64,000 bases of DNA from Gammaproteobacteria bacterium. Its GTDB lineage: Bacteria > Pseudomonadota > Gammaproteobacteria > Pseudomonadales > Halieaceae. How positions within the stretch are numbered: position 1 is the first letter of the stretch; every line of letters starts with the position of its first letter. Under the pieces are notes generated by a model. The model made no database searches, was not told the origin of the DNA, and worked only from the letters and a program-made list of their open reading frames with translations. The position numbers and the translations under genes are program-made. Below are positions 26,305 through 60,135 of this stretch, in pieces. The stretch is taken from the NCBI GenBank assembly GCA_024742415.1, contig JANSYN010000001.1, positions 186,001 through 250,000 of the forward strand, given 5' to 3'.

Positions 26305-27132
26305 ATGCAAACATTGGAAAATAAAGTCGCTGTAATCACCGGGGCCGGCTCAGGCATTGGCGAGGGCATCGCACGCGCAGCAGCGGCGGCCGGTATGCAG
26401 GTGGTTGTGGCGGATATCGACCTGGCCAGCGCGCAGCGTGTTGCCGACAGTATCGGCGAGCAGGCGATGGCCTGTTATGTTGACGTGACCCAGCTGGATT
26501 CAGTGGAGGCGATGCGCGATGCCGCGCTGCATCACTTTGGCGCGGTGCACCTGCTGTGCAACAACGCCGGTGTCTGGATCGGTGCGCTGATGGTCGAGGC
26601 CGACATCAAGGACTGGCAGTTCCTGGTCAACGTCAACCTGTTTGGTGTTATCCACGGCATCAAGGCGTTCCTGCCGCTGCTGGTAGAGCAGGGCGAAGGC
26701 CATATCGTCAATACCGCGTCTATGGGCGGGCTGATTTCAGGGCCGCCCGAGGGGCTGTACACAACCACAAAATTTGCCGTGGTGGGCTTGTCGGAATCCC
26801 TGTTGATGGAGGTGGCAGACAAGGGCGTGGGAGTTTCGGTATTGTGCCCCGGCCTGGTGGATACCAACCTGACAACCAAGTCATTCGAAGTACGCCCGGC
26901 CCAGTTCGACCCGGGTGTGCGACACGACCAGCCCGCGCCGGATACTGCCAGCGGCCTGTCCCCTTTGGCCGTGGGTGAACGTGTTGTTGATGCGGTGCGC
27001 GAGGGTGAGTTTTACATAATCACGCATGACGATTACCGCGACATCATTGCCATGCGCCACCAGGGTATTATTGATGCGCTCGATGCCCATGCACGCCGCT
27101 ATGGGTCAACCTCCGGCCGGGACACCCAATGA
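26305..27132 (+). CDS. Short-chain dehydrogenase/reductase
   Basis: A 275-residue classical SDR. The cofactor motif is 'TGAGSGIGEG' and the active site has 'NTASMGG' (Ser) and 'YTTTK' (Tyr-X3-Lys). Asp of 'VVADIDLASAQ' after beta2 suggests NAD(H). The gene follows the alcohol dehydrogenase by 23 bp and overlaps the DUF3604 gene by 4 bp (ATGA). Substrate is probably a hydroxysteroid or hydroxyacyl compound by context. Confidence 0.88.
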   Translation: MQTLENKVAVITGAGSGIGEGIARAAAAAGMQVVVADIDLASAQRVADSIGEQAMACYVDVTQLDSVEAMRDAALHHFGAVHLLCNNAGVWIGALMVEADIKDWQFLVNVNLFGVIHGIKAFLPLLVEQGEGHIVNTASMGGLISGPPEGLYTTTKFAVVGLSESLLMEVADKGVGVSVLCPGLVDTNLTTKSFEVRPAQFDPGVRHDQPAPDTASGLSPLAVGERVVDAVREGEFYIITHDDYRDIIAMRHQGIIDALDAHARRYGSTSGRDTQ

Positions 27133-34321: not shown

Positions 34322-35089
34322 CTACTTTTCGCTGCGGCCCTTTTCCAGAACCCCTTTCCTGCGCTGTTCGATCATCGCGCCAGTGGCCAGCTTCGCCCAC
34401 TGTGTTGCCTGCGCTTCTTCCCACGGCAGCGCATCCACAAGAGGCATGGAGTAGCCCTCGTCAATCATGGCGCGGTAGCGTGACAGGACCTGCGGTACAC
34501 AGGCAACCATGTTGGCGGCCATTTCCATTGCCTTGGGCAGCAGTGCCTCGGGTTGAAGTACGTGGTTGACCAACCCCCATTCATAGGCCTTTTGTGCGTC
34601 GATGGCAGCGCCGGTGAAGGCGATCTCGCGCGCCCTTGACAGGCCTATCAGCCGTGGCAGCTTCTGACTGAGCCCCCAGCCCGGTAGCATGCCGACGCGC
34701 GCGTGGGTGTCGGCAAAGCGCGCGTTTTCCGAGGCAATGATAATGTCGCAGGCCAGCGCCATTTCAAAGCCGCCGGTAATGCAATGCCCATTGATGGCGC
34801 CGATAATCGGCCCGTTGAAATCTTCCATAGCACGGGCAACAACGTTATTGACCTCTTCGGCGGTGTTGTCGGTTGCACCGGAGCCCAGTTCTTTCAGGTC
34901 AAATCCTGCGCAAAAGGCTTTGCCAGTGCCGGTGAGTATCAGCACACGGATATCTTCGTCTTCCGTGCAGCGCTTGAACGCTGCGACGAAATCTCTGCGC
35001 AGTTCGCGCGACAGGGCGTTCATGGCATCGGGGCGATTCAGTGTGACAACGGCAAAACCCTCGTGTTTTTCCACATTAACGGTGCTCAT
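34322..35089 (-). CDS. Enoyl-CoA hydratase (crotonase) family protein
   Basis: A 255-residue crotonase with 'KAFCAGFDLKELG' and 'GHCITGGFEMALACDIII', where the first catalytic Glu is retained. The second catalytic Glu position is in 'GMLPGWGLSQKLPRLIG', where it is Gly-Trp-Gly, so hydratase activity is uncertain. It is the last gene of the minus-strand MarR-SDR-crotonase operon, 3 bp behind the SDR. Confidence 0.87.
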   Translation of the reverse strand: MSTVNVEKHEGFAVVTLNRPDAMNALSRELRRDFVAAFKRCTEDEDIRVLILTGTGKAFCAGFDLKELGSGATDNTAEEVNNVVARAMEDFNGPIIGAINGHCITGGFEMALACDIIIASENARFADTHARVGMLPGWGLSQKLPRLIGLSRAREIAFTGAAIDAQKAYEWGLVNHVLQPEALLPKAMEMAANMVACVPQVLSRYRAMIDEGYSMPLVDALPWEEAQATQWAKLATGAMIEQRRKGVLEKGRSEK

Positions 35090-35092
35090 GAT

Positions 35093-35965
35093 CTAGTTCT
35101 CCAGCAGTGAAGGTGCATCCAACAGGTCCAGTTCCCTGGCAATGGCGGGACACCGCAGGACCTCTTCTGGTTGCCACTCGGGCAGCGGTTCGTTGTCGGC
35201 CAGCCAGGCAACCACGGCGGCGATGGCTGCCGGCGAGCAGGGGCGAAAGCGCGCCATGACCTCTTCGTCGATGCCGGCCAGGCGCATGACTTCGGTAACG
35301 ACCAGCCCGGGTTCAAGGTTCATGGCCCGCAGGCCGCAGTCGGGATGTTCGGCGCGCAGTGACCCAACCATGCGTGACAGCGCGGCCTTGGAGGAGGGGT
35401 AGGCAAACCCCCAACCGCCTTTATCTGCCGCGGCCGGCGGATTGGCGAACGCGGAGTGCGACACCATGTTGAAAAGGGTGCCGCTGCGTCGCGCCAGCAT
35501 GCCCGGCAGCACCGCACGCACCAAGGCTAAAGGCGTGAAGATGTTGGCGCGATAGATATTCCACAGTTGTTCGTCTGATACCTCCAGTAGCGGCTCCAGG
35601 TTGCCGGTGCCCTGGTAGACGGCATTGTTGAACAGCAGGTCGATCCTGCCGAAATGTGCCAGTGCCTGTTGCGCCGCGCCGACGAGCGACTCTGGTTCAA
35701 GAATGTCGCCACGCAGGCACAGGGCTTCACCGCCTGCGGCGCGCACCGCAGCAGCGGTGGACTCAAGGCTGCCGGGCAGGGCCTGAGAGCTGCCCACGTG
35801 GTCATGTGATTCGCCTTCGCTGAGGGTGCGCGCCGTGATGGCGACGCTATAGCCGGCGCGTGCCAGGGCAACGGCGCTCTCTGCGCCAATACCACGGCTC
35901 GCACCGGTGATGAATGCGACTTTATCGTGGCCGGTCGGGCGTGCAGGTTCCGGTGCGCTATTCAT
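35093..35965 (-). CDS. Short-chain dehydrogenase/reductase
   Basis: A 290-residue SDR with 'TGASRGIGAE', Arg after beta2 ('ITARTLSEG', NADP-type), 'FNNAVYQG', 'NMVSHSA' and 'YPSSK'. ATG 35965 is chosen over a frame start at 35986 because GGAGAG precedes it. It overlaps the MarR stop by 8 bp and the crotonase follows 3 bp later, so the three are one operon. Confidence 0.86.
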   Translation of the reverse strand: MNSAPEPARPTGHDKVAFITGASRGIGAESAVALARAGYSVAITARTLSEGESHDHVGSSQALPGSLESTAAAVRAAGGEALCLRGDILEPESLVGAAQQALAHFGRIDLLFNNAVYQGTGNLEPLLEVSDEQLWNIYRANIFTPLALVRAVLPGMLARRSGTLFNMVSHSAFANPPAAADKGGWGFAYPSSKAALSRMVGSLRAEHPDCGLRAMNLEPGLVVTEVMRLAGIDEEVMARFRPCSPAAIAAVVAWLADNEPLPEWQPEEVLRCPAIARELDLLDAPSLLEN

Positions 35966-36416
35966 TGTTGCTCTCTCCGTGCTCAAGCAGCCGTGTGAGT
36001 GTGTCGAAGGTGTCGTTCATGCGACGGGTGCCAGCGATGGCGGCGTATTGCTCCCAGACGGTTTCCGTGGAGCGCGCCAGCTCATTGATGAACGCCTGGC
36101 CGCGATCGGTAAAGGCAATGCGCTTGGCGCGTGAGTCCTGTGGGTCTACGGTGCGCTCTACAATGCCCAGCGCTTCCATCTCATGAACGATTTTCATCAT
36201 GGATTGGGGGCGAATGCCAGCCGCCTCGGCCAGCTCCACGGCGCGACAGGGCCCAAAGCGGCCCACATGCAGTATTACGGCGCGGTGGCGGGCATTCACG
36301 CCCTTGACGCCGCGCGCCTTCAGGTCGGCGTCCAGACGACGCTGGAAATCATCAGCTGCCAGCATGAGTGCCTGGCCGATCCCTGTGCGTCGTTGTTGTG
36401 CTTTGCCCGTGGCCAT
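35958..36416 (-). CDS. MarR-family transcriptional regulator
   Basis: A 152-residue winged-helix regulator. 'CRAVELAEAAGIRPQSMMKI' is the recognition HTH and 'VDPQDSRAKRIAFTDRGQAF' the wing, both family-typical. It heads the SDR-crotonase operon and faces the LLM monooxygenase gene. Two overlapping-style dyads in the 73-bp divergent gap are the likely autoregulatory operators. Confidence 0.9.
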   Translation of the reverse strand: MATGKAQQRRTGIGQALMLAADDFQRRLDADLKARGVKGVNARHRAVILHVGRFGPCRAVELAEAAGIRPQSMMKIVHEMEALGIVERTVDPQDSRAKRIAFTDRGQAFINELARSTETVWEQYAAIAGTRRMNDTFDTLTRLLEHGESNNE

Positions 36417-42843: not shown

Positions 42844-43614
42844 ATGACCGCTAAAGTCGCGCTCGTAATGGGGGCAGGGGCAGGTACCGGCCGCGCCACT
42901 GCGCTGGCGTTCCAGCGCGAGGGTGCGCAGGTGGTGATCGCCGACATCAACGAAGAGGGTGGCAGGGAAACGCTCCACCAGGTGCAGGCGCAGGGCGGTG
43001 AAGGTATTTTTGTGCGCGCTGATATGGGTGTGGCTGCCGATGTGCAAGCGACAGTTGAAGCCGCCGTGGCCGCCTTTGGTGGCTTGCATATGGTAAGCAA
43101 CAATGCCGCGCTTGGCCTGCGCAGCAAACCAGTAACAGACATCACTGAACAGGAGTGGGATCGCTGTATGTCTGTCACCCTGCGCGGCGTATGGCTGTGT
43201 ATGAAGTACCAGCTGCCGGTAATCGAGGCGTCCGGCGGGGGTGCGATAGTGAACATCGCCTCAGTGTCAGGATTGCGCGGCGAGGCCTTGCAAGGCCCCT
43301 ACGCCGCCGCCAAGGGAGGCGTGATTACCCTGAGCAAAACTGTCGCGGTGGAATATGCCAAACGCGGCGTGCGTGTGAATACCGTTTGCCCCGGCGGTAT
43401 TAACTCCGGCGGCATGGCGTTCTACCTTGATAGCCTTCCCGATGATCTGCGCCAGAAGACGCTCGACGCTCATGCCATGGGCCGCCTGGCGGAGCCGCAC
43501 GAGATCGCCGATGCCGTAGTGTACCTGTGCAGCGATCGCGCATCGTTTATTACCGGGCAGGACCTGGCCGTGGACGGCGGGATACTGGTGCGCTCCAACG
43601 TGGTGGCCCTGTAG
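42844..43614 (+). CDS. Short-chain dehydrogenase/reductase
   Basis: A 256-residue classical SDR: 'MGAGAGTGRATALAF' (the second Gly-rich position is Thr, slightly atypical), Asp after beta2 ('VIADINEEGG'), 'VSNNAALG', 'NIASVSGLRG' and 'YAAAK'. It is the last gene of the plus-strand P450 operon and is convergent with the next SDR. A weak AGCGCC/GGCGCT hairpin follows its stop. Confidence 0.87.
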   Translation: MTAKVALVMGAGAGTGRATALAFQREGAQVVIADINEEGGRETLHQVQAQGGEGIFVRADMGVAADVQATVEAAVAAFGGLHMVSNNAALGLRSKPVTDITEQEWDRCMSVTLRGVWLCMKYQLPVIEASGGGAIVNIASVSGLRGEALQGPYAAAKGGVITLSKTVAVEYAKRGVRVNTVCPGGINSGGMAFYLDSLPDDLRQKTLDAHAMGRLAEPHEIADAVVYLCSDRASFITGQDLAVDGGILVRSNVVAL

Positions 43615-43676: not shown

Positions 43677-44498
43677 CTAGGTGTCGCCTGCAATATCCTG
43701 GTTGTTGAGCGCCGTCAGGTCGAAGTCGGGTATGTGCATCTGTGGCGTTTTACCGCCGTCAACCGGCAGAATGACGCCGGTAATAAACCCTGCCGCGTCG
43801 GAACCAAGGAAGCAGATAGCCTCGGCCATTTCCTCAGGTGTGCCAATGCGCTGCATGGGAATAGCACCTGCCATGGCGTCCTGCATGGCCTTGTTTTTCA
43901 TGGTTGAGGCTTCCAGCCCCGGGGTCATCACTGCGCCGGGTGCGACCACATTGACGCGCACATTGTACGGCGCAGCCTCCATGGCGGCGCACTGTGTGAA
44001 CTGGTTGACCGCCGCCTTTGCTGCCGAATAGGCACCGGCGGCAAAACCGGCGCGCAGACTGCTCACCGAAGAAACATTCACGATCGATCCACTGCCTTGT
44101 GGTTGCATTATTTTCATGGCCGCCTGCACGCCGATAAACACACTTTCCACGCACACCCCGAAGTTGGCGCGCCATTGTTCGATCGTCTGGTCGAGGATCA
44201 TGCCGCCGACCACAGAGGGAGCGTTATTGACCAGCAGATCCAGGCGCCCATGTTCGGCGGCCGTGTCTGCAATCAGGGCAGCAAAGGCGTCCAGATCAGA
44301 CACGTCCAGTGCGACACCGCAGAAGCTGCCACCGTTGGCGGTAATCTCCTGGGCCAGTTCGTCGAGTTTTGCCTGGCGCCGGGCGCAGGCCACCACGTGT
44401 GCACCCTCTGCGGCGAGTTGCAGGGCAGTCGCGCGTCCAATGCCCATGCTGCCGCCAGTAACAATGGCGACTTTGCCTTCATAGCGTTTTGAGCTCAT
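43677..44498 (-). CDS. Short-chain dehydrogenase/reductase
   Basis: A 273-residue SDR: 'TGGSMGIGRATALQL', Arg after beta2 ('ACARRQAKL', NADP-type), 'LVNNAPSV', 'NVSSVSSLRAG' and 'YSAAK'. It is the second gene of a minus-strand pair, 23 bp behind the fused MaoC gene, and may oxidise the hydroxyacyl-CoA made by that hydratase. Confidence 0.87.
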   Translation of the reverse strand: MSSKRYEGKVAIVTGGSMGIGRATALQLAAEGAHVVACARRQAKLDELAQEITANGGSFCGVALDVSDLDAFAALIADTAAEHGRLDLLVNNAPSVVGGMILDQTIEQWRANFGVCVESVFIGVQAAMKIMQPQGSGSIVNVSSVSSLRAGFAAGAYSAAKAAVNQFTQCAAMEAAPYNVRVNVVAPGAVMTPGLEASTMKNKAMQDAMAGAIPMQRIGTPEEMAEAICFLGSDAAGFITGVILPVDGGKTPQMHIPDFDLTALNNQDIAGDT

Positions 44499-44521: not shown

Positions 44522-45547
44522 TTATTCGGTTAGGATAAGGCTCGCGCTGCCCGCCACATGCACGCCGAGCGAGTTCTTGCCCGCGAACTCAATGTTGGCG
44601 GCGGGGCCAGCGTCTGTGATCGAGGCGACCTTCCCCTGCAGTACCATGGTATCGCCTGGTGTATTCGGTGCGAGCAATTTAAGCTGCATGCGCTGCAGGC
44701 GACTGCCAGGGCCGGCCCAGTCTGTCAGGTAACGGGCACACAGTCCGCAGGTCGTCAGGATATTCATAAAAATATCCGGCATACCTGCGGCGACCGCGGC
44801 CGGTGCATTGTGATGCACATCGACGAAATCCTGGCCGGCCAGCGCACCGGCAATAATCAGCTTATGTGTAATGGGTATTGTCAGCGCTGGCAATTCATCG
44901 CCGGCAGTGATGTCCTGCCTCCTGATGTTTGCAAAGGCCGGCGTCGCTGCGCCCGCCGCAGGTGCACAAGCGTCTGTTGCTTGTGCGGGCGCCTGTTGCT
45001 TTGAGCCGGTATTAGCCGCGCGGTATTGAAAGTAGGTAATATACGCCTCGGCAAACAGCGCGTCGTTCTGGTCAAAGTACTGCGCGTGTTCAACGAAGAA
45101 GTATCCCCGGCCCAGTGCGGTTGTCTTCAGTTCACTGATTGAGGCAATCGTATTGTACAGATGGACGCGGTCGCCCTCGGCCAGCAAGCGATGAAAGTGC
45201 ATGTCGTAGCTCACGGCAACGTTGCTGTCGAAGCCGTGCGCGCTGAGCACTTCCATTACTTCATACGGTTCGGCGTCTGTAGAGCCGCTGGCATAACGCA
45301 TGTTCACATCACGCATCGTCCACATCTGCATCATGGCCGGTGGCGCAATGGCCTTATCGATACCCTGCTGCCGCTGGTATTCTGCATCAAGGTACAGCGG
45401 GTTACGATCTCCCATCGCGCAGCACCACTGCCAGATCTGTGTACGACTGACGGGGTTGTGGCTCAGGTAGGGCCCCTTGCGTGTGCCCGTCAGGCTGCTT
45501 GTGTCGAGTTCGGACTGTGGTTCAGTCTGTGACGTCATGCTGTTCAT
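44522..45547 (-). CDS. Fused double-hotdog MaoC hydratase (ChsH2-N + ChsH1-type)
   Basis: A 341-residue protein. The N-half (about 20-180) resembles the FAS1-DH-like hotdog of ChsH2: 'MGDRNPLYLDAEYQRQQGI', 'KAIAPPAMMQMWTM', 'GRGYFFVEHAQYFDQND'. The C-half (about 205-341) resembles ChsH1: 'DFVDVHHNAPAAVAAGMPD', 'FMNILTTCGLCARYLTDWAG', with the hydratase Asp/His pair. An Ala/Gln-rich linker joins them. Separate ChsH1 and ChsH2 genes exist at 55411-56813, so this is a single-chain paralogue without the zinc/OB (DUF35) domain. It should hydrate a bulky 2-enoyl-CoA. ATG 45547 is chosen over a frame start at 45601; ATG 45538 is an alternative. Confidence 0.8.
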   Translation of the reverse strand: MNSMTSQTEPQSELDTSSLTGTRKGPYLSHNPVSRTQIWQWCCAMGDRNPLYLDAEYQRQQGIDKAIAPPAMMQMWTMRDVNMRYASGSTDAEPYEVMEVLSAHGFDSNVAVSYDMHFHRLLAEGDRVHLYNTIASISELKTTALGRGYFFVEHAQYFDQNDALFAEAYITYFQYRAANTGSKQQAPAQATDACAPAAGAATPAFANIRRQDITAGDELPALTIPITHKLIIAGALAGQDFVDVHHNAPAAVAAGMPDIFMNILTTCGLCARYLTDWAGPGSRLQRMQLKLLAPNTPGDTMVLQGKVASITDAGPAANIEFAGKNSLGVHVAGSASLILTE

Positions 45548-45724
45548 GTTCCGGCAGTTTGCGGCTCTAAAGTAAGCTGATCTGTCGCGATTGGCCATCA
45601 CTGCTTGGTTCTATTGTATTAACAAATTCTGCCACTTTTGGCGGCTATCTGGGTAAGTGAATTGCGGGATCGTCACGGTTGGTTCAACTATGGTCGCGGT
45701 GCTCCGGGGTTTGCTCTCGGTGAT

Positions 45725-46119: not shown

Positions 46120-47034
46120 CTAGAACGGCGGAACGGTATAGCCGCCCCACACCGGTACGTAACTGTCGTTGTAGTGCTCGCCAAGGGCAGTGTGTAAATC
46201 ATCCACGGACCATTTCTGCGCGCCCTTGGGATTGGCAATCGCATCCAGCAACTTCGGCCGTTGCAAAATGCTGACTTCACTGCCCCAGACCACCATCACC
46301 TCGCCAGAAATCCTGCCGGCCTCGGGAGAGGCCAGATAGCCGACCAGTGGCGCAACGTTGGCGGGGTCAAAAGCGTGAAAGCCGCCGTCTGCTGGCGGCG
46401 CAAACATTTCGGCGGTTTGGCCGCCGGCGGTCATGTCTGTCAGGGCGCGTGGCATGATGACATTGCTGGTAATGCCGTACTTGTCCAGGAGCTGTGCGGC
46501 GCCCATGGCCATGGCGATGATGCCAGCTTTCGCCGCGGCATAGTTGGGCTGCCCGGCCGAACCGTAGATAGCTGCTTCGGAAGAAGTGCTGATCAGGCGG
46601 CCGTAAACAGCCTCACCGGCCTTGGCTTTTTCGCGCCAGTGCGCGGTGGCGTTGCGCATGTTCACGAAGTGGCCGCGTAAGTGGACGCGAACAACGGAAT
46701 CAAACTCGTCATCGGACATGCCAAAAATGGTCTTGTCGCGGCAGAATCCGGCGTTGTTGATCATGATGTTCATGTCGCCGAAGGTGTCCAGCGTGGTCTT
46801 CATGAGGTTTTCAGCATCGGCCGAATCGGCACAATCACCGAACACCGCGATGGCTTCTCCGCCAAAGCTCTTGATTTCTTCCACAGCGCTGTGCGCTGCT
46901 TCGGCCGCGTCGGGGCGGTCGATGTCATTGATGACAACGCGTGCACCCTGGCGGGCCAATTGTATGGCTTCTTCGCGGCCCAGCCCGCGGCCAGCTCCGG
47001 TGATAACGGCAACTTTGCCGGTCAGGTCTCCCAT
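46120..47034 (-). CDS. SDR, Hsd4A/MFE-2-like hydroxyacyl-CoA or 17beta-hydroxysteroid dehydrogenase
   Basis: A 304-residue SDR with 'TGAGRGLGREEAIQLARQG', 'VINDIDRPDAAEA' (NAD-type Asp), 'IMINNAGFCRDKTIFGMSDD', 'STSSEAAIYGS' and 'YAAAK'. The 'VRVHLRGHFVNMRNATAHWR' segment and the ~50-residue C-terminal extension are characteristic of the MFE-2-type group that includes actinobacterial Hsd4A. It follows the FadA5-like thiolase in one operon (106-bp gap, AGGAG site), fitting a role just before thiolysis of the steroid side chain. Confidence 0.83.
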   Translation of the reverse strand: MGDLTGKVAVITGAGRGLGREEAIQLARQGARVVINDIDRPDAAEAAHSAVEEIKSFGGEAIAVFGDCADSADAENLMKTTLDTFGDMNIMINNAGFCRDKTIFGMSDDEFDSVVRVHLRGHFVNMRNATAHWREKAKAGEAVYGRLISTSSEAAIYGSAGQPNYAAAKAGIIAMAMGAAQLLDKYGITSNVIMPRALTDMTAGGQTAEMFAPPADGGFHAFDPANVAPLVGYLASPEAGRISGEVMVVWGSEVSILQRPKLLDAIANPKGAQKWSVDDLHTALGEHYNDSYVPVWGGYTVPPF

Positions 47035-47140: not shown

Positions 47141-48316
47141 CTAGATACGCTCGATGATTGTGCCTGTGCCCACTGAAGAGCCACAACACATGGTGATCAG
47201 CGCCGTGTTCTTGTCAGAGCGTTCCAACTCATGCAGTGCGGTAGTGATGAGTCGGGCACCGGTTGAGCCGACCGGGTGTCCCAGAGCTATCGCGCCGCCG
47301 TTGACGTTGACCTTGTCCATGTCTGCGTTGTACACCGACGCCCAGGACAGGACGACGGCTGCGAAAGCCTCGTTCACTTCGACCAGGTCGATATCCGCCA
47401 TTGTCATGCCGGTTTTTTTCAGTAATGCGGCTGTCGCATCCACGGGGCCGTCCAGCAGGTAGTAGGGATCTGTGCCAACGACGCAATCAGCGAGGATGCG
47501 TGCGCGAGGCTTCAGGCCGCGGGCTCTGGCCTCGTCTGCCGTCATCCACAGTACGGCGGCAGAGCCGTCTGATATCTGCGAGGAGTTACCGGGTGTGTGG
47601 ATTTGTCCTTCCATCACGGGATTGAGGCTGGCAAGTCCCTCAAGTGTAGTGTCGCGCAGGCCCTGGTCCCGATTAACGGTGCGTGTCTGGCCGGTGGGTT
47701 TGCCGTCATCGCCAAGAATTGGGGCTTCTACTGAAAATATTTCGCGATCGAAGCGGCCTTCCTCCCAGGCGCGTTTGGCCCGGGTCTGTGAGTTGAACGC
47801 CAGTTCGTCGGCCATCTCACGCGTGATGCCGCGGTTGTCTGCGATGCGCTGAGCGCTGGAAAACTGGTCGGGTGTGGAATCCCAGGGCCAGTTCTCGGGC
47901 ACAAAATAGCCAGGTCCATTCATCACGTTGGCCCCGAGCCCGACGCGGCTCATTGACTCCACCCCCGCTGCAATTCCGATGTTGACAGAGCCCGAACCGA
48001 TCAACGCAGAGATTACGTGGTTGGCGGTTTGTGCCGAGCCGCACTGGTTATCCAGTGTCGTACCGCCGGTGCTGTAGTCATTGCCCAGGGTAAGCCAGGC
48101 ATTGCGCGCGATATTGCCTGCCTGTTCTCCGGCCTGGGTGACGCAGCCTGCGGCGAGGTAGTCAACGTCTGCCATTTCCAGACCTGCGCGCTTGAGCAGT
48201 TCGGTATAGGACAGTGCCAGCAGTTGCGTGGCATGAAAATCGGTTAAATCGCCAACGCCGGGTTTGCCTCTGGCGATGGGCGTTCTGACGGCTTCTACGA
48301 TGACGGCTTCGCGCAT
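47141..48316 (-). CDS. fadA5: Steroid 3-ketoacyl-CoA thiolase, FadA5-like
   Basis: A 391-residue thiolase. The nucleophile is Cys92 ('LDNQCGSAQTANH'); His347 ('AIALGHPVGSTG') and Cys377 ('ITMCCG') complete the site, with His347 and Cys377 at the same numbers as in mycobacterial FadA5. Long shared stretches include 'EGRFDREI', 'SSQISDGSAAVLWM', 'VNVNGGAIALGHPVG' and 'LITTALHELERSDKNTALIT'. FadA5 removes acetyl-CoA from the cholesterol side chain. It heads a minus-strand unit with the Hsd4A-like SDR. Symbol given by resemblance recalled from memory. Confidence 0.87.
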   Translation of the reverse strand: MREAVIVEAVRTPIARGKPGVGDLTDFHATQLLALSYTELLKRAGLEMADVDYLAAGCVTQAGEQAGNIARNAWLTLGNDYSTGGTTLDNQCGSAQTANHVISALIGSGSVNIGIAAGVESMSRVGLGANVMNGPGYFVPENWPWDSTPDQFSSAQRIADNRGITREMADELAFNSQTRAKRAWEEGRFDREIFSVEAPILGDDGKPTGQTRTVNRDQGLRDTTLEGLASLNPVMEGQIHTPGNSSQISDGSAAVLWMTADEARARGLKPRARILADCVVGTDPYYLLDGPVDATAALLKKTGMTMADIDLVEVNEAFAAVVLSWASVYNADMDKVNVNGGAIALGHPVGSTGARLITTALHELERSDKNTALITMCCGSSVGTGTIIERI

Positions 48317-48596
48317 GGTGTGTCCTCTGGTTCAGGGCGAGCGCGCGTTACGGGCAGCAGCGCAGCAGTCGCCGGAGTATGGGAAGTTTGGCGGCACAGT
48401 GTACGACAATCGAGGCCTGCCGCAATGACCATTCAGCTCAATCTGGGGGACACATTCTGCCTGCATTCAGTGCCCGGGGCAGTGATCGCCGGCCTGGTAA
48501 GGGCGGCTGGTATAGATGATTAAGCCAGCGGCGAATTGGTGTGTATTGGCCCGCGTGTACCATGGTGCCTTGCACATTTGGCAGGAGGCAAGACCG

Positions 48597-49064
48597 ATGA
48601 AACAGTATGCATACAACGACGTAGACGCTCTGCAGGAGCTGGTTTCTGACGAGTTCGGTGACTGGAGTGAAGAGCTGGAAATCTCACAGGAACTGGTCAA
48701 CCAGTTCGCCGAAATGACGGGCGACTTCAACTGGATACACCTTGATCAGGAGCGTGCCGAGAAAGAAAGCCCCTTTGGTACGACGATCGCCCACGGCTTC
48801 CTGACGCTGGTGATGATGCCAAAAATGCGGGGTACGGCAACCTACGAAATTACCGGTTTCAACAGCATCGCCAACTACGGTTCCGACAAGCTACGTTTTA
48901 CCGGTGCGGTTCCCGTTGGAAGCCGCGTGCGCTTGCGCAGCCGCGTGAAGGAAATCAGCGCCACGCCCAAGGGTACCAAAGTGGTGCAGGAGCAGCATAT
49001 TCATGTGTCGGGACAAGATGATCGCCCGGCGCTGGTTTATGAACTGATCTTCATTTATCTGTAG
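48597..49064 (+). CDS. MaoC-family (R)-specific enoyl-CoA hydratase
   Basis: A 155-residue single hotdog. ATG 48597 has AGGAGG upstream; the frame is open 27 codons earlier without support. The hydratase motif 'MTGDFNWIHLDQERAEKESP' followed by 'GTTIAHGFLTLVMMP' contains the Asp and His of the R-hydratase site. It is divergent from the FadA5-SDR unit across a 280-bp gap and could supply the hydration step of the same cycle. Confidence 0.9.
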   Translation: MKQYAYNDVDALQELVSDEFGDWSEELEISQELVNQFAEMTGDFNWIHLDQERAEKESPFGTTIAHGFLTLVMMPKMRGTATYEITGFNSIANYGSDKLRFTGAVPVGSRVRLRSRVKEISATPKGTKVVQEQHIHVSGQDDRPALVYELIFIYL

Positions 49065-49167: not shown

Positions 49168-51270
49168 ATGACGAATCACCAACAGAAAATAACAAGAGTG
49201 CAAACAGTGAAGAAACTCATCCTGATGATAACAGTCGTCTTGCTGCTGCTGGTCATTCTGGCGGCAACGGTGCTGTGGTTTACCGGTGGCCAGGAGCTCT
49301 ATGCGGTGGCTGCGGCAACCTCGGCAGAAACGGTCGCTGATGATTATGCGTTGCAGGATGATGCGGCCGTGGTGATTCCAAAACCGCGTGCACGTGAGCC
49401 TGCGGCCGCCAACCCGCTGAAAAACCTCTACTGGGGCGAGTTGCATGTCCATACGCAGGAAAGTTTCGACGCCAAGCTCTTTGGTAACAACCTGGGTCTG
49501 GACGATGCCTATCGTTTCGCCCGGGGCCAGGCGCTGCGCAGTGACGGCGGTGAATTGATGCAGTTGTCGCGGCCTCTGGATTTTATGGCGATCACTGATC
49601 ATGCAGAGAGCTTTGGCCTGCGCACGCGCTGCGCAGACAGCGGCTTGTCATGGAGTGAGCGCCTTAACTGCTACTTCCTTGAAACACCCAATACGGCGGT
49701 GTTTTTGATCATCGGTACTTTGGCCGGTGCCAGCGATGTCGTTCCCGAATCTGTGGGCAGGGCAGGCCACTACCAGAACCGTGCGCGTCCGCGGCCCAGT
49801 TACAATAGCTGGCCACTGTGCGCCGCTGACGAAGACCCACAGCGCTGCTTTCGGGACAGCAATTCGGATTGGGCGCGCTACAAGGCGTTGGCTGATGCGA
49901 ACAATGTGCCAGGCGAATTCACCACGTTTGCCGCCTACGAATACTCGGCGGCGATGTCCGCTTCGGGCAAACATCACCGCAATGTGATTTTCAACGGCGC
50001 AGACCTGCCTGAACACGCGGTGTCATCGCTGGATGTGGGCAATGCCATCGAGTTGTGGCAGGCGCTCGAAGCCACCTGCACAGGCGATTGTGATTTCATG
50101 ACCATCCCGCACAATATGAACAAGGGCTGGGGATTGTTTTACAGCCCCTATACCTGGGATGGCAAAGCCTACGATGAGGCTGCCTGGGCGCTGCGCAAGA
50201 AGCGCGAGCCGCTGGCTGAAATGTACCAGATCAAGGGCGCGTCCGAGTGTGCGCTGGGTGTTGGCTCCACGGATGAGGAATGCGGCTTCGGCCAGGTGCT
50301 GCCGCCCTGTGCTCAGGGCCAGCTCAGCGGCTGTGCGTTCACCACCAGTTTCGTTCGACAGGGGCTGCGAACAGGCCTGCAGTTGCAGCGTGACATTGGC
50401 TTCAACCCGATGACGTTCGGCTTTATTGCCGCAACCGATTCACACAATGCCAATCCAGGCGATGCTGAAGAGTGGGATTACGTTGGCAAGATAGGCACGG
50501 TCACCTCGCCCGCGCTGCGGCGCATGACGCAGTGGCCGGACCAACAGCCGTACGAATCAACGCTGCAACACCACACATCCGGAGGGCTGGCAGCGGTGTG
50601 GGCCAGGGAGAATACCCGCGATGCAATTTTCGCCGCCATGCAGCGCCGTGAAACCTACGCCACTTCGGGGCCGCGCATCGGCCTGCGCTTTTTTGCCGGC
50701 TGGGACGTTAATGCGTCATTGCTTGATAATCCCGATGCACTGCAAGTATTGAGCACCACGGCAGTACCGATGGGTGCAACACTGCCTGCCCGCGCCGGGG
50801 ATGCGTCGGCCACAGACGCCGCGCCAGCCAGCCCCGGTTTTTTTGTCTGGGCGGTGGCAGATACGATGAGTGCGCCGTTACAACGCATCCAGATGGTCAA
50901 GGGCTGGATTGACGCAGCGGGACAGACGCACGAGCGCGTGCAGGATATCGCCTGCGCTGACGGCCTTGTGGTGGACGCTTCCAGTGGGCGCTGTCCGGAT
51001 AACGGCGCCGACGTTGACACTGCTAGTTGTGCGTTGCTGGGCGATGCAGGTGCCGCGCAGTTGATGACGGTGTGGCACGACGATGAATTCGATGCGAACC
51101 AGAACGCTTTCTACTACGTGCGCGTGTTGCAAAATCCAACGTGTCGCTGGTCAACCTATGACGCCATCCGCCTGGGTAGGGCGCCGCCTGCGGCGGTACC
51201 AGCAACGCTGCGTGAGCGTGCGTGGTCTTCGCCGATCTGGACGGCAGCGCGCCGGACGGGCGCGCGTTAA
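49168..51270 (+). CDS. DUF3604 protein, membrane-anchored (second copy)
   Basis: A 700-residue paralogue of the protein at 27129-29066. It has an uncleaved-looking N-terminal helix ('MITVVLLLLVILAATVLWF', about 20-38) and then the same metal-site motifs: 'YWGELHVHTQESFDA', 'ITDHAESFGLR', 'TIPHNMNKGWG' and 'AATDSHNANPG'. It ends 'LRERAWSSPIWTAA'. Paired cysteines throughout suggest a periplasmic, disulfide-bonded fold. ATG 49168 is used; GTG 49207 is also possible. Function unknown; metallo-hydrolase activity inferred. It follows the MaoC gene by 103 bp. Confidence 0.85.
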   Translation: MTNHQQKITRVQTVKKLILMITVVLLLLVILAATVLWFTGGQELYAVAAATSAETVADDYALQDDAAVVIPKPRAREPAAANPLKNLYWGELHVHTQESFDAKLFGNNLGLDDAYRFARGQALRSDGGELMQLSRPLDFMAITDHAESFGLRTRCADSGLSWSERLNCYFLETPNTAVFLIIGTLAGASDVVPESVGRAGHYQNRARPRPSYNSWPLCAADEDPQRCFRDSNSDWARYKALADANNVPGEFTTFAAYEYSAAMSASGKHHRNVIFNGADLPEHAVSSLDVGNAIELWQALEATCTGDCDFMTIPHNMNKGWGLFYSPYTWDGKAYDEAAWALRKKREPLAEMYQIKGASECALGVGSTDEECGFGQVLPPCAQGQLSGCAFTTSFVRQGLRTGLQLQRDIGFNPMTFGFIAATDSHNANPGDAEEWDYVGKIGTVTSPALRRMTQWPDQQPYESTLQHHTSGGLAAVWARENTRDAIFAAMQRRETYATSGPRIGLRFFAGWDVNASLLDNPDALQVLSTTAVPMGATLPARAGDASATDAAPASPGFFVWAVADTMSAPLQRIQMVKGWIDAAGQTHERVQDIACADGLVVDASSGRCPDNGADVDTASCALLGDAGAAQLMTVWHDDEFDANQNAFYYVRVLQNPTCRWSTYDAIRLGRAPPAAVPATLRERAWSSPIWTAARRTGAR

Positions 51271-54232: not shown

Positions 54233-55408
54233 TTAGTCCAGCTTGCCGAGCAGCGCGCCGCCAGTGGGTATGCCAACACCGGAGGTGACCAGTGCGTGGT
54301 TGACGTCTTTTTCTGGTTGGTTGCGAGACTGCCCGCGCACCAGCCGCGTTGCTTCGACGATGCCGTTCACACCGTGTATGTATGCCTCCGAGAGCTGTCC
54401 GCCGTGGGTGTTGGTAGGCAGGCGTCCGTCCGGACGCAGTGCGCCATCGAGCACAAAGTCACCTGATTCGCCAAAGCCACAAAATCCCCAGGCTTCGAGC
54501 TGCCACAGCACGATAGGCGAGAACGCGTCATAAATGACGGCGGCGTCGATATCGTCAACGGTCAGGCCGCTCATCTCGAAACAATTTTTGGCGGCGATCT
54601 CCATTTCCGGAATCGCGGCGAACTCCTCGCGATAAAAGGAGGTCATTTGTTCCTGGTCGGCTGCGGCTGCCTGCGCGATGCCGCGCACGCTGACGCCCGG
54701 CTGCCGCAGGTCGCGTGCCCGTTCCGGTGTGGTGACGATCACGCAGGAGCCGCCGTCACTTTCCTGACAGCAATCAAACAATTGCAGTGGATCAGCAATC
54801 ATGCGGGCGGCGTCATACTCTGCGCGATCGAAGTTGCGCTGGTAGAAAAACGCATTGGGATTGTTCAGGGCATACTGGCGCGTGGAATGCGCCACCTCAA
54901 AGAGCGCATCCCTGGTCACGCCTGTGTTGTGCATCCAGCGCTGCGTGAACATCGCGACCCATGATGCGGGTGTCAATAAGCCATAGGGCATGTACCAGCC
55001 CCAGTGAATGGCATCGGCGGTCATGATGTCGCCGGAGACGCCATCTGAAAAGCGGTGGCCGGAGCGACCGTTAAGGGCCCGGTAGACTGCAACGCACTCT
55101 GCCATGCCCGTTGCTACTGCCATAACAGCCTGGTGCAGGCTGCCGGTGGCGGCGCCGCCGCCGTAGTGCGAGCGTCCCCAGAAGGTCATGTCGCCACAGC
55201 CAACGGCGCGCGCTACTTCAATCTCGTCGTTGCTGTCCATGGTGAAGGTCGCGAAACCGTCGATATCGGAAGGCTTCAGCCCGGCATCATCAATCGCGCC
55301 CTTGACGGCCTGGGCCGCCAGCGACAGCTCGGAAACGCCGGAGTTCTTTGAAAACTCAGTATTGGCAACGCCGACAATCACGGCCTTGTCCTTGATATTG
55401 GCAACCAT
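54233..55408 (-). CDS. ltp2: Thiolase-fold lipid-transfer protein, steroid retro-aldolase Ltp2-like
   Basis: A 391-residue non-decarboxylating thiolase-fold protein. Hallmarks shared with mycobacterial Ltp2 are 'FSKNSGVSELSLAAQAV', 'FATFTMDSNDEIEVARAVG', 'HYGGGAATGSLHQAV', 'LFDCCQESDGGSCVIV' and 'PTNTHGGQLSEAYIHGVNGI'. Ltp2 with ChsH2's DUF35 domain splits the 17-hydroxy side-chain CoA thioester into a 17-ketosteroid and propionyl-CoA. The gene is last in the operon after chsH2 and chsH1, 2 bp from chsH1, the same grouping as in the mycobacterial igr operon. Confidence 0.87.
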   Translation of the reverse strand: MVANIKDKAVIVGVANTEFSKNSGVSELSLAAQAVKGAIDDAGLKPSDIDGFATFTMDSNDEIEVARAVGCGDMTFWGRSHYGGGAATGSLHQAVMAVATGMAECVAVYRALNGRSGHRFSDGVSGDIMTADAIHWGWYMPYGLLTPASWVAMFTQRWMHNTGVTRDALFEVAHSTRQYALNNPNAFFYQRNFDRAEYDAARMIADPLQLFDCCQESDGGSCVIVTTPERARDLRQPGVSVRGIAQAAAADQEQMTSFYREEFAAIPEMEIAAKNCFEMSGLTVDDIDAAVIYDAFSPIVLWQLEAWGFCGFGESGDFVLDGALRPDGRLPTNTHGGQLSEAYIHGVNGIVEATRLVRGQSRNQPEKDVNHALVTSGVGIPTGGALLGKLD

Positions 55409-55410
55409 GA

Positions 55411-55842
55411 TCAGGCCTCCTGCGGCAGTGTCAGTTGAACGGTGCCCTGCATGTGCATGCCCCAGATATTGTTTTCGCCGAGCACGGTGATATCCACGCG
55501 CCCGGTACTTGCGTCTACGGCAGTCACTTCGCCGGTCATGGTCATTACCATACCGGGTAGGTTCGGGGCACCCAGCTTGAGGTCAATCGAGTTGACGAAC
55601 GCCTCGGGGCCGGACCAGTCAGTGGCATAGCGCGTCATCAGGCCCTGGCTGGTCAGGATGTTCATAAACACGTCGGGTAGCCCGGTGGCCTGTGCCTCCG
55701 CCTTGCTGTGGTGTACGGGTTCGAAGTCGCGTGTGGCCAGTGCGCCGCACACCACCAGGCCCGTGGTGATATCGATGTCAACCGCTTCGAGTGTGTCGCC
55801 GACGGAAACTTCGGCGCAGGTCAGTGTCTTGTAGTCAGTCAT
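55411..55842 (-). CDS. chsH1: MaoC hydratase subunit, ChsH1-like
   Basis: A 143-residue single hotdog with the hydratase Asp/His in 'ATRDFEPVHHSKAEA' and 'GLPDVFMNILTSQGLMTRYA'. In Mycobacterium ChsH1 is the catalytic half of a heterotetramer with ChsH2 that hydrates the three-carbon steroid side-chain enoyl-CoA. The gene sits 11 bp after chsH2 and 2 bp before ltp2, so subunits are probably co-translated. Confidence 0.87.
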   Translation of the reverse strand: MTDYKTLTCAEVSVGDTLEAVDIDITTGLVVCGALATRDFEPVHHSKAEAQATGLPDVFMNILTSQGLMTRYATDWSGPEAFVNSIDLKLGAPNLPGMVMTMTGEVTAVDASTGRVDITVLGENNIWGMHMQGTVQLTLPQEA

Positions 55843-55853: not shown

Positions 55854-56813
55854 TTACGCCGGGTAGAATTGGGGTAGCATGGTTTTGTCATCAACTTGCT
55901 CAACCTTGCCTTTGAGCTTCATGCCGATGAACACATCGTCGTACTCACAATCGACGATGTTCGACACGATGTTCGTGCCCTCGGCCAGTTGAATAACGGC
56001 ACAGATTGGGTCCTTCGGATAGCCGGGAATTTTCGGATGGCGCAGCGCCGTGTAAGAGAGCACCTCGCCTTCTAGGGTTGACTCGATGGAGTCCCAGGCC
56101 ATGGATTGACACTGGCCACACATGGGGCGGGGAGGGTGGCGCAATGTCTGGCAGTCCTTGCAGCGCTGGATCAGCACCTTGCCCTCGTCGCAGGCCTCCC
56201 ACCACCAGCCGTTGTCGTGGCCGCGCGGAGAAGCGATGCGCGTGGGAACCTCGAGTGCGTTATCGTCAGCGGCAGCCGCTGCAGGTAGCTCCTGTGGGAT
56301 GAACTTCAACACCTTGAAGCGCTGTGTGCCGACCACCTCGCCGTTCTGGTCGGTGAAGGTCGACAGTGTCTCGAAGAAGTATCCGGTGCCGCGCGATGTT
56401 GTCTTGCGCTCGGAGATATTGTCGATCACCATTTGTATGGTGATGTTGTCTCCGGGGCTGACCTCCTTGAAGTATTCCTGCTTGACGTTGGTGCCCAGCA
56501 CGCCGGTAAAGCCGTAGTCGTTGAACATGGCGACGAGGTTGGACTGCGCGTTGGGTGCGCGGCCCCTGGTGACCTGGAAACCCTCCTGCCCCCAGACATA
56601 CATCATCGCGGGCGGTGCAATGGTTTTGCCGCGCTTGCTGCTGGCGGCCCATGCCGGATCGAGATAAGCGGGGTTGGTTTCCCCGATGACTTCAGCCCAT
56701 TGGCGAATCATGGGCAGGTTGACGTCGTCCGGGGCCGGGGTGGGTGGGTATACTTCCTGGCCTACGAAGGCGTAAATCTTTTCTTCAAAGACTTTTTGCT
56801 CATCAGCGTTCAT
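55854..56813 (-). CDS. chsH2: MaoC/DUF35 two-domain subunit, ChsH2-like
   Basis: A 319-residue protein. The N-terminal hotdog (about 1-165) has 'GETNPAYLDPAWAASSKRGK' and 'IAPPAMMYVWGQEG'. The C-terminal part carries a zinc ribbon with four cysteines ('CKDCQTLRHPPRPMCGQCQS') and an OB fold, the DUF35 module that docks Ltp2 in the known complex. ATG 56813 gives the family-like start 'MNADEQKVFEEKIYAFVG'; the open frame reaches 56981 but those residues look non-coding. A 204-bp gap to the upstream acyl-CoA dehydrogenase includes a GGGCGC/GCGCCC hairpin, so a separate promoter is possible. Confidence 0.87.
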   Translation of the reverse strand: MNADEQKVFEEKIYAFVGQEVYPPTPAPDDVNLPMIRQWAEVIGETNPAYLDPAWAASSKRGKTIAPPAMMYVWGQEGFQVTRGRAPNAQSNLVAMFNDYGFTGVLGTNVKQEYFKEVSPGDNITIQMVIDNISERKTTSRGTGYFFETLSTFTDQNGEVVGTQRFKVLKFIPQELPAAAAADDNALEVPTRIASPRGHDNGWWWEACDEGKVLIQRCKDCQTLRHPPRPMCGQCQSMAWDSIESTLEGEVLSYTALRHPKIPGYPKDPICAVIQLAEGTNIVSNIVDCEYDDVFIGMKLKGKVEQVDDKTMLPQFYPA

Positions 56814-56982
56814 GGTGGAATGTCTTCCTCTTTGTCGGGGTAGCTCGTTTCGGAATGTATGCAGAAAAACCGTTATGGACGCGTCATCGTGCCTGTGCGT
56901 CAGTGTCCTGTTATGTCGTAGCGCACCGCTTGTTTTATTGCTGTGTTGAGCGGCGCTGGAAGTCTGCAGTTGTGGTCGCAAA

Positions 56983-57017: not shown

Positions 57018-58190
57018 CTAGCGGTGTATCGGCATGCCCAGGCCATGGGTTGCAACGAGGCCGCGTAGCACTTCCACCACGCCACCGCCGAAGGTGTTGA
57101 TGGTAGCACGGCGGTATTCATGTTCCAGGTTGCCGTGCAGCACAGTGCCCTCACTGGTCGAGGCCACCAGCGCATGCGGGCCGACCACGTCCATCATCAG
57201 CCGGCACAACTCCAGCATGATTTCCGTAGAGTACACTTTGATGGCGGAAGGAAACACCGGATCCATCGACTGCTGGTCAAGCTGCCATGACATGCGCGCG
57301 TTCATGACGCGCATGGCTTCAAGGTGCGCGTAGCATTCCGCCAGGTTGCGCTGTGCGGTAGGGTCATCGATGACGCGACGACCGTTGGCATCGGTGGTGT
57401 TGCGAGCCCAGGCCATGATGTCGCGAAACAGCTTCCAGCCCTGTATGCCCCAGGCAGCCAGGCCAACCCGTTCGTGATTGAGTTGTTCGGTAATCAGGCG
57501 CCAGCCGCCGTTCTCTTCGCCGACAATCATATCCAGCGGCACTTTGACGTTGTCATAATAGGTCACGTTGGTATGGACGCCACCGACTGTGTTGATCGGT
57601 CCGCGCGAAAAGCCGGGGTCTTTGGTATCCGCAACCAGGATAGAGATGCCTTTGTGCTTTTTGACCTCTGTATCAGTGCGCACCGCCAGGAAAATGTAAT
57701 CTGCACCCTCGGCGCCACTGGTAAATATCTTACTGCCGTTGACCACGTAGTGATCGCCGTTTTTCACCGCAGAGGTGGTCAGTGCGGCAAGGTCAGTACC
57801 CGCGCTGGGCTCGGTGTAGCCGATCGCAAAGTGCAGTTCGCCGCTGGCGATGCCAGGCAGGAAGCGCGCCTTTTGTTCATCGGTACCCTGGCTCATGATG
57901 GCCGGGCCCACCGTATTGAGGGTTACGAAAGGGGTAGGGGCGCCGGCCAACAGCGCCTCTTCATAGCGGATAAGCTGCTCGCTTTCGGTCAGGCCGCGGC
58001 CGCCGTACTCCTCGGGCCAGCCGATGGCCAGCATGCCGTCCTTGCCCTGCTGCCGGATCAGCGCCTTGTAGAGGTCGCCGCTTTCAGCATTGCGCAGTTC
58101 CTCGCGATGTTCTGGCTTGATCAGCCCGCTGAAGTAGGCCCTGAATTCCTTGCGTAACTCGCGCTGGTGTTCTGTGTAATCGACAAACAT
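57018..58190 (-). CDS. Acyl-CoA dehydrogenase, steroid side-chain type subunit (FadE28/FadE29-like)
   Basis: A 390-residue flavoprotein. ATG 58190 has GGAGCGG upstream. FAD/substrate motifs 'GYTEPSAGTDLAALTTSAVK' and 'WQLDQQSMDPVFPSAIKVYS' are present. The C-terminus has 'INTFGGGVVEVLRGLVATHG', the FGGG..E..R form found in the subfamily that includes steroid-specific ACADs instead of the 'YEGT' catalytic loop of medium-chain enzymes. Such ACADs work as alpha2beta2 heterotetramers; the partner is probably the ACAD at 58984. It leads the minus-strand chsH2-chsH1-ltp2 operon. Confidence 0.86.
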   Translation of the reverse strand: MFVDYTEHQRELRKEFRAYFSGLIKPEHREELRNAESGDLYKALIRQQGKDGMLAIGWPEEYGGRGLTESEQLIRYEEALLAGAPTPFVTLNTVGPAIMSQGTDEQKARFLPGIASGELHFAIGYTEPSAGTDLAALTTSAVKNGDHYVVNGSKIFTSGAEGADYIFLAVRTDTEVKKHKGISILVADTKDPGFSRGPINTVGGVHTNVTYYDNVKVPLDMIVGEENGGWRLITEQLNHERVGLAAWGIQGWKLFRDIMAWARNTTDANGRRVIDDPTAQRNLAECYAHLEAMRVMNARMSWQLDQQSMDPVFPSAIKVYSTEIMLELCRLMMDVVGPHALVASTSEGTVLHGNLEHEYRRATINTFGGGVVEVLRGLVATHGLGMPIHR

Positions 58191-58219
58191 GGGTACCGCT
58201 CCGTGCAATTGATGGTTGT

Positions 58220-58247
58220 ATAATATTGATTTTGAATTCAAATTCAA
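58220..58247 (-). promoter_or_regulatory. Promoter with palindromic operator before the igr-like operon
   Basis: On the minus strand TTGAAT (58247-58242) and TATTAT (58225-58220) are spaced 16 bp. The 12-bp perfect palindrome TTTGAATTCAAA (58231-58242) fills the spacer and touches the -35. The TetR gene starts 20 bp to the right, so it probably represses both directions from this site. Confidence 0.65.
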
Positions 58248-58983: not shown

Positions 58984-60135
58984 ATGAATTTTTCGTTCAC
59001 TGAAGACCAACTGGCAATTCGTGACCTGGCCAGCCAGATTTTTGGCGACAGGGCCACCGATGAGTTCCTGCTGAGTTTCTCACGCACCGATGCCACCTAT
59101 GATGACGCCCTCTGGCAGACCCTGGGTGAGCAGGGTTTGCTGGGCATCGCCATCCCGGAGAGCGCCGGTGGTTCCGGCCTGGGCCTGATTGAGCTATGTC
59201 TGGTGCTCGAAGAGTTGGGTCGCCACGTGGCGCCTGTGCCGGTCTACGCCAGCCTGGTACTGGGCGGGCTGCCAATTGCGCAGTTCGGTAGCGATGAACA
59301 GCACGCACGCTACCTGCAGCCCCTGGCCAGCGGCGCTATAAAACTCAGTGCCGCCATTGCCGAGGAGGGTATGAACCCGGTGTTGGCTTCATCAGTGAGC
59401 GCGCAGCGCCAGGGCGATCAGTGGGTGCTCAACGGCGCTCGTTCTGTAGTGCCGGATGGGGCGGTGGCCAATGCCATTGTGGTGCCTGCCTCGACGGGTG
59501 AGGGCAAGACCACGTTTTTTATCGTCGACACGGCCGCCAGCGGCGTGCAGGTGACACCCATGGAAATCGGCCTGTCGAAACAGCGCGCGGCGCAGTTGAC
59601 GCTGACTGAGGTGACACTGGGCGACGACGCGGTGCTCGGCGCTGAAGGCGAAGGACAGGCCGTACTGGAGTGGCTGCTCGAGCGTGCCAATATTGGGCAT
59701 TGCGCGCTGCAGGTAGGCGTCACGGAAGAAGCCATGAAGCGCACGGCTGCCTACGTCAGCGAGCGCAAGCAGTTTGGTATTCCGCTGGGCTCTTTCCAGG
59801 CGCTGGCGATGCGTATGGCAGACAGCTATATCGACGTGGAAGCAATTCGCACCACCTACTGGCTGGCACTGTGGCGGCTCAGCGAAGGGCTGGATGCGCG
59901 CGCCGAAGTGCGTGCCGCCAAGTGGTGGGCCTGTGACGCTGCGCATCGTGTGGTGTCTACCTCGCAGCACCTGCACGGTGGTATGGGCGCGGATGTCGAG
60001 TATCCGATACACCGCTTCTTCCTGATGGCAAAGCTGATCAGCTACTCGCTGGGCAATGCCAGCCAGCAGTTGGAGCAACTGGGCAAGCTGCTTGCCGAGG
60101 ATGATTCTCTGGGCTTTCGCGCGCTGGAAGTGTAG
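58984..60135 (+). CDS. Acyl-CoA dehydrogenase, second subunit (FadE28/FadE29-like)
   Basis: A 383-residue flavoprotein starting 'MNFSFTEDQLAIRDLASQIF'. The mid-region has 'AIAEEGMNPVLASSV' and the C-terminal region 'HLHGGMGADVEYPIHRFFLM', typical of one member of the heteromeric steroid ACAD pairs. No canonical catalytic 'YEG' loop is visible at the end. Its coding next to the TetR and opposite the other ACAD suggests the two proteins form an alpha2beta2 enzyme that desaturates the steroid side-chain CoA ester. Confidence 0.86.
   Translation: MNFSFTEDQLAIRDLASQIFGDRATDEFLLSFSRTDATYDDALWQTLGEQGLLGIAIPESAGGSGLGLIELCLVLEELGRHVAPVPVYASLVLGGLPIAQFGSDEQHARYLQPLASGAIKLSAAIAEEGMNPVLASSVSAQRQGDQWVLNGARSVVPDGAVANAIVVPASTGEGKTTFFIVDTAASGVQVTPMEIGLSKQRAAQLTLTEVTLGDDAVLGAEGEGQAVLEWLLERANIGHCALQVGVTEEAMKRTAAYVSERKQFGIPLGSFQALAMRMADSYIDVEAIRTTYWLALWRLSEGLDARAEVRAAKWWACDAAHRVVSTSQHLHGGMGADVEYPIHRFFLMAKLISYSLGNASQQLEQLGKLLAEDDSLGFRALEV

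Follow-up and report, generated by a model that had tools for sequence, protein, structure and literature searches.

A DUF35-less single-chain fusion of ChsH2-like and ChsH1-like hydratase domains, linked to an SDR gene, in a sterol-degradation cluster of Halieaceae

The window analysed in this work, a stretch of 64,000 nucleotides from a Halieaceae genome (contig JANSYN010000001.1), holds on its minus strand a gene (44522..45547) for a predicted single-chain ChsH2-like/ChsH1-like double-hotdog enoyl-CoA hydratase of 341 amino acids, in which no zf-ChsH2 or OB_ChsH2_C (DUF35) match was found with Pfam at E 0.01. An SDR dehydrogenase gene accompanies it, and we slightly favour the reading that this hydratase and SDR pair serves sterol side-chain β-oxidation, uncoupled from the aldolase. 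The fused layout without DUF35 was already known; what seems to be new here is the descent of the two halves from ChsH2 and ChsH1. No description of this fusion was found in the titles and abstract openings of the papers listed by searches of the open-licence PMC literature.

The reading frame starts with the ATG at 45547, and an alternative GTG at 45601 would give a product of 359 amino acids. In this longer form, a ChsH2-type MaoC domain makes up the N-half (45017..45487, minus strand; profile envelope 39-195, Pfam FAS1_DH_region at residues 48-183) and a ChsH1-type MaoC domain with Asp and His (DFVDVHH) makes up the C-half (44525..44911, minus strand; profile envelope 231-359, Pfam MaoC_dehydratas at residues 240-327). 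When compared with the PDB by phmmer, the C-half matched ChsH1 (4wnb_B, E 5.2e-23, residues 234-356) and the N-half matched ChsH2 (4wnb_A, E 3.8e-18, residues 39-195), the top non-Chs match of the protein being at E 4.3e-7. The assignment of the halves made in an earlier note, ChsH2-type for the first and ChsH1-type for the second, was borne out by this search and by the trees of each half. An origin of the halves from unrelated MaoC families was ruled out by the PDB search, which was the broader test, and by both trees. The protein also remained below the cut-off of the fused HadA/HadB dehydratase family NF040620 (52.6 vs. 350 bits).

The fusion was read as one open frame in the window gene and at 27 other non-redundant loci, at 46-65% identity; two of these 27 (L039 and L076) were truncated by the contig end. 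A chance reading frame was ruled out by the 27 further loci together with NG86 dN/dS ratios under 0.25 in all five pairs (0.10-0.24); YN00 gave values of 0.14-0.34 in three of the five pairs, and dS was saturated in the pair that includes the window gene. Alignment A1 starts 6 bases upstream of the ATG and alignment A2 at the ATG itself.

The earlier note had made its reading depend on the active-site Asp and His being in place, and the catalytic Asp and His, as read from the sequence, appear to be in place in the C-half of all 28 fused rows. The His position of the N-half was occupied by Tyr in 25 rows, the window row among them, by Phe in one and by His in one (27 rows, owing to the contig-edge fragment L141); the N-half is probably non-catalytic, with Tyr replacing the hydratase His. 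The AlphaFold model of the fused chain (pLDDT 86, pTM 0.85) displayed a short helix in the N-half (96-103), a long helix in the C-half (263-278) and a disordered linker (182-198). For ChsH1, an excerpt of PMC11321319 describes an 18-residue central helix that makes its own pocket too small for steroids. Searches with the whole model (Foldseek and VIA) returned double-hotdog chains, fatty acid synthases and thioesterases among the matches listed; ChsH1 and ChsH2 were not among these, which is no evidence against kinship because both are single-hotdog chains.

In order to trace the ancestry of the protein, trees were built from N- and C-halves cut from the window, its relatives and the named loci, with Chs-type rows. 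The outgroup was L005, a distant pair of the own genome with a very long branch, omitted from the AU-test and Embleya trees. L003, L102 and L118 (copies of the window genes, L043 and L070) were dropped from the trees and neighbour counts, the fused-frame loci L083, L086, L093, L098 and L105 stayed outside both, and L050 and the nine chains of Acidimicrobiales were tallied separately from the fused rows. The 28 fused rows formed one clade in the N-half tree (support 100/99) and in the C-half tree (89/80, or 100/100 when the outgroup was omitted). Set against the separate genes, this clade was separate from the genome's own ChsH1 and ChsH2 in both trees. Its closest unfused kin were nine genomes of the f29 family and the Lysobacterales locus L117 (100/100 in the N-half tree; 94/79 in the C-half tree, where it was not a starred branch); f29 comprised at least 10 genomes among the matches listed, nine of which entered the trees (G322 was left out).

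In the ten loci of these kin (nine f29 loci and L117), the ChsH2-type gene runs on for 145-158 residues past its MaoC part, and this tail was confirmed by Pfam as DUF35 in L065 and is of equal size in the remaining nearest kin; ChsH1 follows directly, and then an Ltp2-like gene, in 10/10. Since the nearest unfused kin keep DUF35 in the trees of both halves, fusion and DUF35 loss are derived, and the claim that the fused protein has lost a docking domain was supported. By parsimony, the ancestor would have carried DUF35, with fusion and loss following. The DUF35 part and the stop codon sit between the two MaoC domains, and therefore a single in-frame deletion could both fuse the halves and drop the dock; we infer that such a deletion took place.

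These kin also bear on another explanation, according to which the fused protein serves C24-alkylated sterol side chains (those of algal phytosterols) and the unfused kin represent the aldolase version of that step. We regard it as very unlikely. The nearest kin make up an aldolase gene set of a second type, found near a cholesterol oxidase in L065, and only some of the CYP125-bearing genomes have the fused gene, both of which would suit this explanation, whereas the unfused kin of L117 have ChsE-type genes next to them, the arrangement known from C3 degradation. Second-type aldolase gene sets are presumably linked to C24 branches.

Among 50 named loci, 27 held a single chain of 329-415 amino acids and nine a three-domain chain; L108, L114, L119 and L120 gave partial matches near a contig end, and ten loci gave separated matches, of which nine were read and all nine were unfused. 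The named kin belonged mostly to Halieaceae (Halioglobus, Pseudohalioglobus and Seongchinamella) and to unclassified Gammaproteobacteria, with one Porticoccaceae. A single origin of all ChsH2-ChsH1 fusions was ruled out by AU tests on the tree of each half, indicating that the fusion arose more than once. This is the case of G024. Its 345-residue fusion (L050, 9563-10597) is without DUF35 by Pfam and of the canonical ChsH lineage, and a place in the main clade was rejected for each of its halves (AU P = 2e-160 and 0.0005); a small stand-alone DUF35-like gene (19459-19866) lies about 9 kb off, beside ChsE-type genes, and the genome had no CYP125 match at the threshold used. In Acidimicrobiales-type Actinomycetota (L121-L128 and L131), nine chains of 502-512 amino acids join a ChsH2-type MaoC domain, a DUF35 part and a ChsH1-type MaoC domain; their alignment to the window ChsH2 extends across the DUF35 part of the latter, and an Ltp2-like gene directly follows in 9/9, this being a fusion that keeps the dock. 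A common clade of these chains with the fused rows was rejected by the N-half (P = 8e-5) but not by the C-half (P = 0.12). An Embleya plasmid (Streptomycetaceae; L149:8001-9140) encodes a DUF35-less ChsH2-ChsH1-type fusion of 380 amino acids, a gene unannotated in the collection's table, which was excluded from the main clade by the N-half (P = 0.012) but not by the C-half (P = 0.77) in quick trees with a long branch. The Acidimicrobiales and Embleya fusions probably had separate origins as well.

Unfused pairs of a short ChsH2-like protein (175-190 amino acids) and a ChsH1-like one were observed in L133:9258-12538 (G038), L071:10946-11889 and L072:8827-9778; they leave no room for DUF35, and no Ltp2-like gene was found within the stretch, which makes them pairs without an aldolase that stop short of fusion.

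The statement of the earlier note that the two hotdogs are two polypeptides in known systems did not stand, as ChsH2-ChsH1 fusions recur elsewhere (G024, Acidimicrobiales and Embleya) and as the portion of PMC11321319 on Actinobacteria describes ChsH3, CasD and CasQ as hydratases of C5 steroid side chains with a fused double MaoC on one chain and no DUF35. By that description, their layout (two fused MaoC domains, no DUF35) is the same as that of the fused protein. ChsH3, CasD and CasQ are presumably MFE-2-type hydratases; if so, the shared layout would have had separate origins. Four PF22622 MFE-2-type Acidimicrobiales chains (of seven found), presumed to be ChsH3/CasD/CasQ-like, reached at best 29 bits against the fused protein and are thus nearly unrelated to it in sequence. 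PF22622, the N-terminal domain of MFE-2 hydratases, was not matched in the fused protein at E 0.01 nor found in its own genome at E 0.001, and, again unlike MFE-2 hydratase 2 of human and Candida, the hydratase is encoded apart from the SDR. The possibility that the fused gene replaces a missing MFE-2-type hydratase was tested and was unsupported by the distribution of PF22622, which was above the cut-off in 10/57 relatives and absent from many genomes both with and without the fused gene.

With the ChsH1-ChsH2 enzymes of Mycobacterium tuberculosis (4W78/4WNB) and Comamonas TA441 (ORF42/ORF40), the fused protein has in common the two MaoC lineages, each in its corresponding role, and by sequence also the location of the catalytic Asp and His on the ChsH1 side, with none on ChsH2. 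It differs from them in being one chain instead of two, in the absence of DUF35, and in that its gene has an SDR alongside and no Ltp2 gene of its own. Shy of Proteobacteria is also a MaoC hydratase of steroid side chains, but PMC11321319 describes this enzyme as a single MaoC domain preceded by DUF35 at the N-terminus and as a homodimer in complex with Sal, as compared with two halves and no DUF35 in the fused protein. The Acidimicrobiales chains, in turn, carry both MaoC types on one chain like the fused protein, but keep DUF35 and have an Ltp2-like neighbour. To our knowledge, it is unsettled why some steroid hydratases are tethered to the aldolase by DUF35 and others are not. The systems compared here form a natural series (two genes with DUF35, two genes with a stand-alone DUF35, one chain with it and one chain without it), allowing loss of the tether to be tested against the fate of the hydrated product, and the steroid pocket against side-chain length; the predicted compact single-chain steroid hydratase is also on offer for biocatalysis.

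We consider the window to be a sterol-degradation cluster because it contains P450, KshA-type, KstD-like, FadA5-type and Hsd4A-type genes and the chs set. The CYP125/CYP124-type P450 (38106..39305, plus strand; CYP125MRCA 404 bits, E 6e-120; CYP124 283 bits) would act in sterol side-chain oxidation, judging by this family match. The FadA5-type steroid 3-ketoacyl-CoA thiolase (47141..48316, minus strand) reached 598 bits with NCBIfam PRK07850 (cut-off 515). The Hsd4A/MFE-2-type SDR (46120..47034, minus strand) was named by context, with a weak family match (NCBIfam PRK07792 and PRK07791, both under the cut-off), and a single-domain MaoC hydratase (48516..49064, plus strand) was Rv0130-like and also PaaZ-like. 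The separate genes that the earlier note had located 10 kb away from the fused gene were found at about that distance, all on the minus strand: ChsH2 (55854..56981) with zinc ribbon and OB (DUF35) domains, ChsH1 (55411..55842) and an Ltp2-type aldolase (54233..55408; NCBIfam PRK07855, lipid-transfer protein, 557 bits vs. a cut-off of 469; Ltp2 name by context). Two ChsE-type acyl-CoA dehydrogenase subunits (57018..58247, minus strand, and 58984..60135, plus strand; names by context), a KshA-type oxygenase and a KstD-like flavoprotein, the latter also named by context, complete the set.

The SDR at 43677..44498 lies on the same minus strand, 23 bases downstream of the fused gene, and is likely its operon partner. 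The neighbourhood of both genes, pointed out in the earlier note, proved to be a tight genetic link, since an SDR directly followed the fused gene in 26/27 further non-redundant loci (window not counted). These SDRs were 66-88% identical to that of the window and on the same strand as the fused gene, with spacings from a 133-base overlap of the longest frames to a 64-base gap; in the 27th locus (L039) the contig ends there, the SDR of this genome being found on a different contig. A second SDR of the window (42844..43614, plus strand) is convergent, and its homologs (44-80% identical) occurred near the fused gene/SDR pair in several loci. FadA5 and Hsd4A-type genes lay no more than 9 kb upstream, on the strand of the fused gene, in 8/27 loci, several of the others being on short contigs.

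We propose that the fused gene codes for an (R)-type enoyl-CoA hydratase that is a pseudo-heterodimer within a single chain, and that it originated from an aldolase-linked ChsH2(MaoC-DUF35)-ChsH1 gene pair. The ChsH1-type C-half would supply the Asp/His dyad that adds water, and the ChsH2-type N-half, without the catalytic His, most likely forms the wide steroid pocket. Lacking DUF35, the protein would not hand its hydrated product to Ltp2; the neighbouring SDR would most likely oxidise the 3-hydroxyacyl-CoA to the 3-ketoacyl-CoA, and the FadA5-type thiolase would then cleave it, hydratase plus SDR plus thiolase thus replacing hydratase plus aldolase. The substrate would perhaps be, in the most tentative part of the proposal, the 2-methyl-branched C8 enoyl-CoA of the first cholesterol cycle, or a C5 chain. 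According to excerpts of PMC11321319 and PMC8399759, the equilibrium of ChsH1-ChsH2 is unfavourable and drawn forward by Ltp2; an untethered hydratase would therefore need another pull, which the SDR would give if the product were a secondary alcohol (C5 or C8 chains, not C17). As to the dock itself, the part of PMC12502768 on Comamonas TA441 presents the hydratase as active without DUF35, and DUF35 as indispensable for the aldolase; earlier work, as cited in an excerpt of PMC11321319, found DUF35 unimportant for hydratase or aldolase activity. In a further-reaching form, which we put forward tentatively and find somewhat doubtful, an in-frame deletion would have freed an aldolase-docked hydratase and switched steroid β-oxidation from retro-aldol cleavage to oxidation plus thiolysis, an SDR being recruited. 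The ChsH2-ChsH1 lineage would thereby have rebuilt a layout that Actinobacteria (ChsH3/CasD) and animals (MFE-2) presumably attained from a different lineage. Against the favoured reading, the cluster has another hydratase/SDR/thiolase set (48516, 46120 and 47141).

Alternatively, the fused protein could be a redundant hydratase of the C3 side chain, hydrating the C17(20) double bond, with Ltp2 bound to the DUF35 of the separate ChsH2 taking the product from solution; this seems unlikely. G363 (L070) has the fused gene and SDR immediately behind ChsH2-ChsH1-Ltp2, and according to PMC12502768 both activities were obtained in TA441 when the MaoC and DUF35 domains were expressed apart. However, a full ChsH1-ChsH2-Ltp2 set is already present in the window, and both trees keep the fused clade distinct from these own ChsH1 and ChsH2. 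A tertiary alcohol at C17 cannot be oxidised to a ketone, and for this reason the constant SDR partner would be left unexplained.

The protein might also hydrate the CoA ester of the opened ring system, in a ScdD-like manner, or belong with SDRs and a SnoaL-type protein to a module removing ring hydroxyls, which we judge improbable. In six of the 27 fused loci a SnoaL-type gene was nearby and FadA5 was not, one of the six also having an OYE-type gene; the SnoaL-type neighbours without FadA5 hint at ring-hydroxyl chemistry, and such a role would also agree with the SnoaL, OYE and SDR genes around the fused gene at several loci. The best PDB match of the SDR was a 7-alpha-hydroxysteroid dehydrogenase, though many SDRs tie. 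PMC13101464 describes ScdD of TA441 as a hydratase of the MaoC family that acts at the ring stage, with the ring genes scdB and scdH beside the chs cluster. Both halves of the fused protein are, in contrast, of side-chain hydratase lineage, and the linkage to FadA5 and Hsd4A-type genes in 8/27 loci also points away from the rings.

The distribution of the genes was surveyed in 57 genomes, the own genome included. The main-clade fused gene was present in 17 of them, as was the SDR at E 1e-90 among the matches listed, 16 genomes having both. In G012 the fused gene was present and the SDR was cut by the contig end (L038). In G038 (L132) an SDR 68% identical to that of the window lies directly behind ChsH2-ChsH1-Ltp2 and there is no fused gene; therefore, the SDR can serve another step. 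At the thresholds used, CYP125 was found in 27/57 genomes and the fused gene in 17/27 with CYP125 and 0/30 without it; these counts cover the 57 genomes, fused genomes such as G190, G206 and G363 being outside them. FadA5 occurred in 24/57 genomes (16/17 of those with the fused gene) and the MaoC of 48516 in 26/57 (17/17). These co-occurrence counts are not independent, because 16 of the 17 fused genomes belong to one genus. Ten CYP125-bearing relatives, six of them with FadA5, had no fused gene, which is thus no general requirement of sterol side-chain degradation; together with G038, they speak against a strict or essential role of the pair. An excerpt of PMC5790920 reports a cholesterol-grown Halieaceae isolate, BC51. 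A contig of isolate BC5_1 (L102) carries the fused gene, and from the names we infer that both are the same strain.

Some other observations were made in the same loci. In L037:1-2204 and L137:15488-18221, a second Ltp2-like gene (56% identical) and a stand-alone DUF35-type gene lie beside ChsE-type genes, and this set adjoins a canonical ChsH2-ChsH1-Ltp2 set, giving two aldolase systems per locus. In the window, adjoining crotonase-like and SDR-like genes (34322-35089 and 35093-35986, minus strand) near the side-chain genes recall, in likeness only, scdH and scdB beside the chs genes of Comamonas TA441 as given in an excerpt of PMC13101464. The window also encodes two DUF3604-like proteins, one recognised by Pfam (27129-29066) and the other by resemblance (49168-51270).
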